This document shows, one piece after another, positions 4,276-7,305 of a stretch of 64,000 nt of DNA; position 1 is the first letter of the stretch, and each line of letters opens with the position of its first letter. A program made the translations under genes and the position numbers. The stretch is from positions 419,783 through 483,782 of the forward strand of contig JAHJGO010000011.1 in assembly GCA_018824405.1 (NCBI GenBank), read 5' to 3'. This stretch comes from Gammaproteobacteria bacterium (lineage in GTDB: Bacteria; Pseudomonadota; Gammaproteobacteria; Burkholderiales; Sulfuricellaceae). The notes below the pieces were generated by a model. The model worked only from the letters and a program-made list of their open reading frames with translations, searched no databases and was not told the origin of the DNA.

Positions 4276-4962
4276 TTAAACCTTTGCCAGTTCGGCTCGC
4301 ATCGCGGCGATGACCGAGTTGTAGCGGTGCGGATCGCTGTCCTTGGCTGCGCCGAATACGGCGGAACCGGCCACGAAAGTGTCCACGCCTGACCTTGCAA
4401 CTTCAAGAATATTGCCAGGACCAACGCCGCCGTCGATTTCCAGGCTGATGTCGAGGCCCTTGGCATCAATCATCTGGCGTACCTTGCGAGCCTTGTCGAG
4501 CACGTAGGGAATGAATTTCTGGCCGCCGAATCCGGGGTTGACCGACATCAGCAGCACCATGTCAAGCTTGTCCAGGGTGTATTCCAGGATATCCAGTGGC
4601 GTAGCCGGATTGAACACCAGTCCGGCCTTGCAGCCATTTTCCTTGATCAGGCCAATAGTGCGGTCGATGTGCTCGGAAGCCTCAGGGTGGAAAGTGATGT
4701 AGGTGGCGCCAGCCTTGGCGAAATCAGGGATGATGCGATCCACCGGCTTGACCATCAGGTGCACGTCGATCGGCGCGGTCACGCCGTGTTTGCGCAGGGC
4801 TTCGCATACCAGCGGGCCAATAGTCAGATTGGGCACATAATGGTTGTCCATTACGTCGAAGTGAACGATGTCTGCTCCGGCAGCAAGCACATCGTCAACG
4901 TCCTTGCCGAGGTTGGCGAAGTTGGCTGAGAGGATGCTGGGCGCAATACGGTATTGAGGCAT
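4276..4962 (-). CDS. rpe: Ribulose-phosphate 3-epimerase
   Basis: Interconverts ribulose-5-phosphate and xylulose-5-phosphate in the pentose phosphate and Calvin cycles. The 228-residue TIM barrel carries the family landmarks [14 protein letters not shown] at the N terminus, the metal and active-site segments [15 protein letters not shown] and DVHLMV, and [12 protein letters not shown] with the catalytic Asp later in LEIDGGVG. Length is typical. It is the first gene of the rpe-lipoprotein-gph-trpE unit, preceded by 138 nt of non-coding DNA. Confidence 0.96.
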
Positions 4963-5100
4963 GGCGATTCCTTAAAGAAACGGGAAAACTACTATTTTAA
5001 CCCTAATTCGTCTCGCCAGGGCAAGGGCAGCGCAATGCGCAGTGCTCGCCATGTTCAACGAGTACTCGAACCCATTGCCACTGGAGATAAGCCGACAAAT

Positions 5101-5775
5101 TCATGATGCCGTGTCTTTAAGCAATTTGCGCTGAAATGCGTAAAACGAGTTGGCAACGGCAGATGCTTCCCCCAGCGTGAGTGTTTGCCGCAAGGTGTTG
5201 CTGTGTAGTGGCAGCACAAAGCGGATGCCGGGTGCCAGGTCCAGGGCGTAGCGGTTGATATTGCTGGCCACTTTCTGAAAGGCGACAACTGCCGCACCGG
5301 TTTCCTCCGGGAGTAGTTCACCGTTCTCTGTCAGTGCAAAGCGAATGGTTTCGCCGCTCATGGCGCACCGGGTTTCGATTCTGGCGGGTGCGTTGAGCAT
5401 GCGGGGCAAGGCAAGTGCATCCAGCGCGGACAGGGCATGCAGTGTCTCGTGGGGAAAGTGGACCTGGATGTCGGTCGGCGTGGCGCAGAACGGCGGGCAG
5501 CCAATATGCTCGTTGACAATGAATATCGCGTCCAGCGCGACTAGCTCGTCCAGCGACCCGGGGTCGAAACCGGTTGTTAGCGGTGCAGTGCCGGTCTGCA
5601 CCCAGCGCAATAGTATCGCCAGGTAGGTTTCGCGCGTGTCATCGCACGCTTCTTTGCCGATGCGACGTTCCAGAGGAAAGGCGCGATGCAGTCCCATGAG
5701 TGCGGCAATGATGGCTTGTGAATTGGCGTTGAGTTGCGGTTTATGCGGCAATTTCTGGTCCTGTCCTGGTTGCAA
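5101..5775 (-). CDS. MerB-fold (alkylmercury lyase-like) protein lacking catalytic cysteines
   Basis: A 224-residue protein whose residues 106-150 line up with the core of organomercurial lyase MerB: the MerB segment around C96-A-L-D99 corresponds to S116-A-L-D119 here, and the structural cysteine of ARVSSHC corresponds to C137 in ARIETRC. The catalytic C96 is therefore Ser. The second catalytic pair (C159/C160 of MerB) has no counterpart: the C-terminal 60 residues contain no Cys. A CPPFC pair lies at 93-97. By sequence it should not cleave C-Hg bonds. The reading frame opens with TTG and no good Shine-Dalgarno, so the start is uncertain (Met27 is an alternative). It follows the NYN gene by 11 nt. 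The alignment is from memory. Confidence 0.6.
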   Translation of the reverse strand: MQPGQDQKLPHKPQLNANSQAIIAALMGLHRAFPLERRIGKEACDDTRETYLAILLRWVQTGTAPLTTGFDPGSLDELVALDAIFIVNEHIGCPPFCATPTDIQVHFPHETLHALSALDALALPRMLNAPARIETRCAMSGETIRFALTENGELLPEETGAAVVAFQKVASNINRYALDLAPGIRFVLPLHSNTLRQTLTLGEASAVANSFYAFQRKLLKDTAS

Positions 5776-5786
5776 GAATGAAGGGC

Positions 5787-6632
5787 TTAATATTCCGGGT
5801 TGAAATTCCTGATGATGACGCCACCCGACTTTTCGTCGTGTTCCACCTCCAGCAGTTTGCGTGTTGCGGCTTCATCCAGCAGTTTGCTGAACGAGGAAAA
5901 TCCGTAGTAACTTTCGTTGAAGCCCGGTTTGCGCCGCTTGAGCGCCTGCTTGACCATCGAGCCCCAGATTTTTTCTTCTTCCCCCCGTTCCAGAAAAAGG
6001 GCTTCCACAGTGCTCATCACCAGATCGAGGGCTTCCTGCGTCTTGTCGTTTTCTTCCTTGGGCGGGGTTTTGGGTGCGGTCTCGGCGGCACCCTTGGTGG
6101 CGGGTTTTTTCTTGACGCGGGTTTTGGCTTTTTCGGCTTTCTTCTCCGTTTCCCTGACCAGATCGTCGTAGTAGATAAATTCGTCGCAGTTGGCGATCAG
6201 AAGGTCGGAGGTGGAGTTTTTTACGCCTACGCCGATGACCGTTTTGTTGTTCTCGCGCAACTTGCTCACCAGCGGCGAAAAATCCGAATCTCCGCTGATG
6301 ATGACGAAAGTATCGACATGCGATTTGGTGTAGCAGAGGTCGAGCGCGTCCACTACCATGCGGATATCGGCAGAGTTTTTGCCCGACTGCCTCACGTGGG
6401 GAATCTCGATCAGTTCGAATGCCGCTTCGTGCATGGATGCCTTGAACTCCTTGTAGCGCTCCCAGTCGCAGTAGGCCTTTTTCACTACAATGCTGCCCTT
6501 GAGTAACAATCGCTCCAGCACCTTGCGGATGTCGAATTTCTGCGCAGGTTTGGCGTCGCGTACGCCCAGGGCGACGTTCTCGAAGTCGCAATATAACGCC
6601 ATGTTGCGGGTTTTTTCGGGGATCAGCGGCAT
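5787..6632 (-). CDS. NYN (PIN-like) domain protein with C-terminal LOTUS/OST-HTH domain
   Basis: A 281-residue protein in two parts. Residues 10-160 form a NYN/LabA-type PIN-like nuclease fold: ALYCDFENVALG (acidic residue D16), the SADIRMVVDALD segment, and the diagnostic SGDSDFSPLV near 113-122. A Lys/Ala/Pro-rich linker (160-200) leads to residues 200-275, which look like a LOTUS/OST-HTH RNA-binding domain (DLVMSTVEALFLERG, then GFSSFSKLLDEA). It probably binds or cuts RNA. The ATG at 6632 is chosen over an upstream start because the NYN strand begins right after it and the upstream codons are the antisense of the divergent gene. It is divergent from the DUF1415 gene, 103 nt away. Confidence 0.82.
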   Translation of the reverse strand: MPLIPEKTRNMALYCDFENVALGVRDAKPAQKFDIRKVLERLLLKGSIVVKKAYCDWERYKEFKASMHEAAFELIEIPHVRQSGKNSADIRMVVDALDLCYTKSHVDTFVIISGDSDFSPLVSKLRENNKTVIGVGVKNSTSDLLIANCDEFIYYDDLVRETEKKAEKAKTRVKKKPATKGAAETAPKTPPKEENDKTQEALDLVMSTVEALFLERGEEEKIWGSMVKQALKRRKPGFNESYYGFSSFSKLLDEAATRKLLEVEHDEKSGGVIIRNFNPEY

Positions 6633-6735
6633 GACGGACTCCAGAGGTGATGTGCCATGGGATGATAGTATCGGTGTGAATGCGAAAACTGCAAGTGCGA
6701 AATCCATCGCCTGCGGATGTCTGAATGAGGGTTTG

Positions 6736-7305
6736 ATGATGGAGAAGGATGAAGTGATTACAGCCACCCGCTTGTGGGTGGAGAAGGCGGTGATCGGACT
6801 CAATCTGTGCCCGTTTGCGAAAGCGGTGTATGTGAAAAATCAGGTGCGTTTCGTGGTCAGCGAAGCCAGGCATGTGGATGGTTTTCTGGAAGACCTGGAC
6901 CGGGAACTGGATTTTCTCGCCGCTGCCGATCCGGCTGAAACCGACACCACCTTGCTGGTCCACCCGACCTTATTACCGGATTTCCTGGAGTTCAACGATT
7001 TTATGGTGATGGCCGAGGGGGCTGTGGGCGAACATGGATTGGAGGGCGTCATCCAGATTGCCAGTTTTCACCCGGCATACCAGTTTGCCGACACAGAACC
7101 GGACGATATCGGCAACTACACCAACCGAGCCCCCTTTCCTACCCTGCATCTGATCCGGGAGGAGAGCCTTTCCCGTGCTGTCGATTCCTTTCCGGATGTT
7201 GACGGCATTTATGAACGCAATATCGAGACGCTGAAAAAACTGGGGCTGAGCGGCTGGCAGGCCCTGGGTTTGTCAAACACCAAGTCCGCTAAGCCTGGTT
7301 CCTGA
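6736..7305 (+). CDS. DUF1415 family protein
   Basis: A 189-residue cytoplasmic protein matching the DUF1415 family: a conserved N-terminal WVEKAVIGLNLCPFAKAV segment with one Cys, then VIQIASFHPAYQFAD, and NRAPFPTLHLIREESL. No signal peptide or membrane segment. The family is common in proteobacteria and has no assigned biochemical role that I know of. The start is the first of two adjacent ATGs (6736 and 6739), downstream of GAGGG. It is divergent from the NYN gene and convergent, with a 4-nt gap, on the small gene that follows. Confidence 0.85.
   Translation: MMEKDEVITATRLWVEKAVIGLNLCPFAKAVYVKNQVRFVVSEARHVDGFLEDLDRELDFLAAADPAETDTTLLVHPTLLPDFLEFNDFMVMAEGAVGEHGLEGVIQIASFHPAYQFADTEPDDIGNYTNRAPFPTLHLIREESLSRAVDSFPDVDGIYERNIETLKKLGLSGWQALGLSNTKSAKPGS

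Follow-up and report, generated by a model that had tools for sequence, protein, structure and literature searches.

The window, by which we mean the whole 64,000-nucleotide stretch of DNA that was analysed, carries a minus-strand gene whose product resembles the organomercurial lyase MerB and has Ser and Ala at the positions of that enzyme's two catalytic cysteines, C96 and C159. We consider it probable that this protein, referred to here as the Ser type, belongs to the organomercurial-lyase lineage, has lost the thiol chemistry and has been reused, probably as a ligand-binding protein. Our judgement is evenly balanced on a broader statement, namely that the lineage left the mer operon, lost both catalytic and most site cysteines, gained clade-specific invariants and a new non-mercury function, and spreads as a lone gene among the families of one order, which would make it the first natural 96Ser/159Ala MerB without mercury thiols.

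The frame reported in the initial annotation, 5101-5775 on the minus strand, is open in the window, with TTG at 5775 taken as its start. The gene likely starts instead at the TTG at 5751, which is favoured by the ~7 nt that separate it from the SD-like AGGACAGGA (5767-5759, minus strand) and by the fit of the homologue N-termini. The protein then has 216 residues, and the residue numbers used below are those of the earlier 224-aa version minus 8. The features of the gene are as follows.

5101..5751, minus strand: MerB-fold gene of the Ser type, 216 aa, stop codon at 5103-5101; assigned by PF03243 (44 bits) and homologue alignment
5752..5775, minus strand: N-terminal extension of the initially reported frame (TTG at 5775), probably untranslated; the homologue alignment gives it no support
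5428..5430, minus strand: Ser108 codon (TCC), position of the MerB catalytic C96, by hhalign and the 42-sequence alignment; Ser in 9/9 clade members
5419..5421, minus strand: Asp111 codon, position of MerB D99, kept, by hhalign and the 42-sequence alignment
5365..5367, minus strand: Cys129 codon, position of MerB C117, kept, by the 42-sequence alignment
5233..5235, minus strand: Ala173 codon, position of the MerB catalytic C159, by hhalign and the 42-sequence alignment; Ala in 9/9 clade members

A search against PF03243 (MerB), the check initially proposed for the family assignment, placed the window protein above the gathering cut-off (44 bits against 27, E 2.6e-11), with the match covering profile positions 1-74 of 126. 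Scores against the two NCBI MerB models fell far short of the thresholds (34 bits where 200 is required, and 32.6 where 193 is), and the Pfam and NCBI profile scans returned no family besides MerB models. The best solved relative was MerB2 (5c17, E 5e-4) when a single sequence was used and alkylmercury lyase (1s6l, E 5e-5) when a profile was used. With hhalign, the match to seven canonical MerBs reached a probability of 97% (E 1.2e-10), and that to a sister set of Cys-rich MerB relatives 100% (E 2.3e-43). We assign the window protein a probable MerB fold from these sequence profiles alone; AlphaFold, run from three sequences (those of the window, L002 and L003), returned a mean pLDDT of 36.9. 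Because Ser-type genes exceed the PF03243 cut-off, a survey that relied on this profile alone could count them as mercury demethylators.

The initial residue calls, with Ser for C96, Asp99 and C117 kept, and C159 gone, proved right by hhalign and by alignment. MerB C96, D99, C117 and C159 correspond to Ser116, Asp119, Cys137 and Ala181 in the 224-aa numbering and to S108, D111, C129 and A173 in the 216-aa numbering. These four columns read S/D/C/A in all nine close homologues, so that the Ser formerly numbered 116 is kept throughout the clade, and C/D/C/C in 32 of the remaining 33 MerB relatives, which were drawn from the order and the class (MAFFT, 42 sequences in all). Eight further relatives from the phylum, compared by eye, all keep C/D/C/C. 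Left out of the 42 rows were L021 and L022 (weak or disrupted), L064 (which gave an unrelated frame in place of a MerB one), L077 (a truncated Cys-rich copy), L083 (a fragment), repeat fetches, and the MerB of pWW0 (L085). A misalignment that hides the true catalytic cysteines was considered and rejected: each clade member has only three or four cysteines in total, and C159 maps to Ala by both hhalign and MAFFT. No homologue of the clade was found to keep both catalytic cysteines in a misaligned region, which had been the doubt attached to the initial calls. The one exception among the 33 other relatives is a Cys-rich protein of genome G048 (L023, 1264-1920) that has Asn for the catalytic C96 and keeps the other signature cysteines; G048 additionally carries a copy with C96 (L010) and one of the Ser type (L024).

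Likeness to organomercurial lyase MerB (PF03243; 1s6l, 3f0o) extends to the AxDxL helix motif, the Asp99 and Cys117 positions and the C159 strand. The Ser type differs from a functional MerB in lacking Cys96 and Cys159, in scoring below the NCBIfam cut-offs, and in its setting, with no merA, merR, merP or merD found nearby, where a place in a mer operon is usual, though not strict. In the portion of Christakis et al. 2021 available to us (PMC8261052), C96 and C159 are named as the catalytic cysteines, Cys96, Asp99 and Cys159 are called strictly conserved in MerB, and natural variants, each defined by one changed signature residue, are described at 99 and 117; that portion of the survey contains no variant at 96 or 159. 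The Ser type is likewise a natural variant defined at signature residues, but it keeps 99 and 117 and changes 96 and 159, and is thus neither a 99Ser variant (it has Asp111) nor a 117alt variant (it has Cys129). Our searches of the open-licence literature found no paper on MerB C96S or on a MerB pseudoenzyme. A clade with this combination of residues offers a natural experiment on the MerB scaffold without thiols. The MerB-like organometallic lyase SaoL (NF040728) shows a weak profile likeness to the window protein (16 bits, E 0.009, below the cut-off of 140); it is listed with a Cys-Sec (CU) motif in the accessible part of PMC13188914, and the Ser type has no CU.

Homologues scoring above 350 bits, the window's own included, number nine and occur in 9 of the 399 genomes of the order. 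Samples of the class (369 genomes) and the phylum (398 genomes) held no other homologue above 350 bits, the best other matches reaching 111 and 68 bits, respectively, and scans of viral contigs found no relative. A maximum-likelihood tree built from 42 proteins unites the Ser-type proteins in one branch (100/100) and groups it with the Cys-rich MerB set at 85/94. Within this branch, the window's copy sits beside that of G048, a genome of another family (93/82), and is nested within the copies of a third family, f50, in which six of ten genomes are carriers. Horizontal transfer as a lone gene would fit both the tree position and the sites, with differential loss as the alternative. In one carrier genome, G190, the Ser-type gene is partially duplicated: its C-terminal end occurs again (L083, 1495-1704) ~1.3 kb away from the complete gene.

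All nine copies have intact frames without internal stops, the mean column identity among them is 71%, and the Ser108 codon varies silently (TCC, TCG or TCT). dN/dS could be computed for 24 of the 36 pairs, where it ranges from 0.07 to 0.32, and dS is saturated in the other 12; the ratios are rough, as pS is high throughout (0.52-0.84) and dS is near saturation in most pairs. These comparisons indicate that the Ser-type protein is under purifying selection, and selection together with the new invariant residues suggests a function that has been altered and maintained rather than lost.

The nearest full-length relatives of the Ser type are the Cys-rich MerB proteins (L010-L013, L023, L042-L045), which share with it a similar N-terminal part (FPLxxRI...Y...W) and the G-C-x-P-F motif. 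In these relatives cysteine is conserved at nine columns. Two of the nine persist in the Ser type (C85 in 8/9 copies, C129 in 9/9), and seven are replaced, with the unvarying Tyr168 and Ala173 among the replacements. The Ser type has fifteen invariant residues that the Cys-rich proteins lack, including Cys36 (new, in 9/9), Arg49, Asp94, His101, Ser108, Lys160, Tyr168, Ala173, Gln189 and Arg208. The two groups also differ in setting, as mer genes adjoin four of the nine Cys-rich loci: merR, merP and three merA lie near the Cys-rich MerB at L035; merA is directly upstream of it at L044 (by tblastn only) and L045; and merD is near it at L043, where the MerD match of 99.6 bits is just below the cut-off of 103.65. 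At the other five loci the same six queries found no mer gene (L042 was covered by ~1.5 kb on each side), and a match at L027, ~31% identical, looks by eye like glutathione reductase. A search of plasmids gave a single kind of match, the merB carried by pWW0-type plasmids (4 records). On TOL plasmid pWW0 this gene adjoins merR, and its product shares 36% identity with the window protein across 77% of the latter. We infer a mer-type enzyme as the ancestor of the Ser type, and an ancestor within a mer operon is likely rather than certain, given that no mer gene was found at five of the nine Cys-rich loci.

At L035 (genome G111), three merA, two merR-like genes (one apparently frame-broken) and the Cys-rich MerB fall within ~11 kb. 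A truncated Cys-rich MerB relative in G299 (L077, 1342-1866) gives a match that ends ~45 bp from a merA match. At L034 (7815-8858, the same gene as L012) and L065 (1252-2382), MerB-like domains are fused behind a CopZ-type iron-sulphur/zinc-binding domain (NF047645, 169 and 131 bits, respectively; PF18423 in L034), and the two fusions fall in different MerB subgroups.

We picture the window protein as a MerB-fold protein that descended from organomercurial lyases, with a mer-type enzyme as the presumed ancestor and a gene that would have moved between families on its own. By what has been published on MerB, loss of C96 and C159 should abolish both binding and cleavage of organomercurials, and the Ser type would neither hold Hg nor protonolyse the C-Hg bond. 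The protein may instead serve in the cytosol to bind a ligand, with no C-Hg lyase function. Its old pocket (Ser108, Asp111, Tyr168, Ala173) may bind a small polar or anionic ligand, or may be kept for shape, and the clade-specific invariants Cys36, Arg49, Asp94, His101, Lys160, Gln189 and Arg208 would mark the new function. We are less sure of this binding role and of the nature of the ligand: a polar or anionic one is proposed because of Ser108, Asp111 and the new basic residues, in a pocket whose make-up is read from the alignment. A possible thiol role elsewhere in the protein, through C85, C129 or the new C36, counts against this reading. The earlier view, of a MerB fold kept while the mercury chemistry was given up, is borne out to the extent that sequence allows, by Ser and Ala fixed in 9/9 copies, by purifying selection and by the partly mer-adjacent setting of the sister set with intact cysteines; that half of the initial interpretation stands, and the other half, in which a neighbouring NYN-LOTUS gene hinted at the role, falls for the reasons given below. 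A regulatory partner of an active MerB was also considered and is disfavoured, because a further PF03243 match occurs in just one of the nine carriers, G048 (three copies), and in none of the other eight.

The protein might still bind a metal, in this case a harder one (Cu, Zn, Fe or Ni), at a new site formed by Asp111 with Cys85, His101 and Cys36. Models for such a role are the Cu-binding MerB variants in the literature and the copper protein NosL. NosL belongs to the same NosL/MerB fold group, which reportedly arose when treble-clef zinc fingers were duplicated and their zinc was lost (PMC4999995, in the part accessible to us), and our scans gave no sequence match to NosL. Asp111 and Cys129 are invariant, Cys85 is nearly so, His101 and Cys36 are invariant and clade-specific, and the related natural variant class 99Ser is reported with broader metal affinity in the available portion of PMC8261052. 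The copies at L002 and L003 also lie a few kb from zinc/manganese ABC transporter-like genes and a binding protein (by eye), but no metal genes were seen by eye in the contexts of the other copies. Of 24 other relatives, 20 have Gly in the His101 column; the residue precedes Ser108 by seven positions and so probably occupies a turn remote from the old site. Seven of the nine cysteine columns of the sister set are also gone. On balance we regard a metal site as unlikely.

Still less probable, in our estimate, is that Ser108 serves as a nucleophile, the Cys-to-Ser swap with Asp111 kept having yielded a hydrolase or transferase. Fixation of Ser108 in 9/9 copies despite silent variation of its codon would suit such an enzyme, as would the invariance of Asp111 and His101. 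A Ser-His-Asp triad was considered and is kept only as part of this proposal, since His101, in its probably distant turn, is likely too far away. The window protein matched no family other than the MerB models, and no MerB-fold enzyme is known to use Ser.

The distribution of mercury genes bears on whether the Ser type could still act on mercury or another organometal through C36, C85 and C129, or bind Hg and hand it to MerA, a role that we hold to be very improbable. A tblastn search with six queries (E 1e-3) recovered no merA, merR, merP or merD from the 64-kb window, in agreement with the initial statement that mer genes are not nearby, or from the stretches of 5-16 kb around the eight other Ser-type copies. 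The sole match, at L030, we take for a lipoamide dehydrogenase from its ~31% identity and its place among pyruvate dehydrogenase genes. At the genome level, MerA exceeds the cut-off in four of the other eight carriers; in the window's genome the best match is below it (385 of 454 bits). The resulting frequency, 4/9 carriers against 44/365 other genomes of the order (48/374 overall; one-sided Fisher p 0.019), is a weak hint of a mercury link and is counted as a weak point against our main reading. Family membership may explain this excess, as merA is equally frequent within f50 in carriers (3/6) and non-carriers (2/4), non-carriers being genomes for which no match was listed and two of the four being only 66-70% complete. 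The sister set lies partly by mer genes, which would also suit a mercury role; the loss of both catalytic thiols in 9/9 copies speaks against it, as does the description of MerB C117, the equivalent of C129, as buried in the accessible part of PMC8261052.

The initial annotation had read the adjacent NYN-LOTUS RNA-binding gene as a hint of a shared role. The relevant features of the locus are the following.

5787..6602, minus strand: NYN-LOTUS gene (PF01936 and PF12872), upstream of the MerB-like gene and common in the family
4276..4962, minus strand: rpe (ribulose-phosphate 3-epimerase, named by eye), the downstream flank of the insertion
5009..5786, no strand assigned: segment between conserved flanks, a single-gene gain or loss, ~778 bp against 106 bp in G015

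The MerB-like gene follows the NYN stop by 35 nt on the same strand, and no sigma-70-like site was found in 4900-6900, so the two genes possibly share a transcript in this genome. The NYN gene is nevertheless present in 21 of the 22 genomes of the window's family, against one of 22 for the MerB-like gene, and it was not found around any of the eight other Ser-type copies (tblastn, stretches of 5-16 kb). In the congener G015, NYN is followed by rpe without the MerB-like gene, with 106 bp between matching flanks by blastn of the intergenic regions. Among the 21 NYN loci, 17 of which cover 1.5 kb after NYN and four of which end early at contig ends, rpe was found only in the window and G015. Given this distribution, the empty site in G015 and the absence of NYN near the eight other copies, NYN-LOTUS is an accidental neighbour of the MerB-like gene; the pairing is not conserved, the neighbour gives no hint of the role, and a joint function with the RNA-binding protein is largely refuted and barely credible. 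Elsewhere, the copies at L002 and L003 lie between dapF and DUF484-xerC, that at L025 near an Hsp70-like gene, that at L030 in a pyruvate dehydrogenase region, and those at L031 and L032 next to a small membrane-protein gene (names by eye), and no neighbour common to the Ser-type copies points to a function.

Decay to a pseudogene, or chance resemblance, would suit the sporadic occurrence of the gene and is refuted, with next to no probability left to it, by the nine intact frames, dN/dS well below 1 where computable, the column identity and the significant profile matches.

A DUF1415 gene (window 6490-7305, plus strand; PF07209, 233 bits) is divergent from the NYN-LOTUS gene, and the same divergent pair occurs in the congener G019 (L096).
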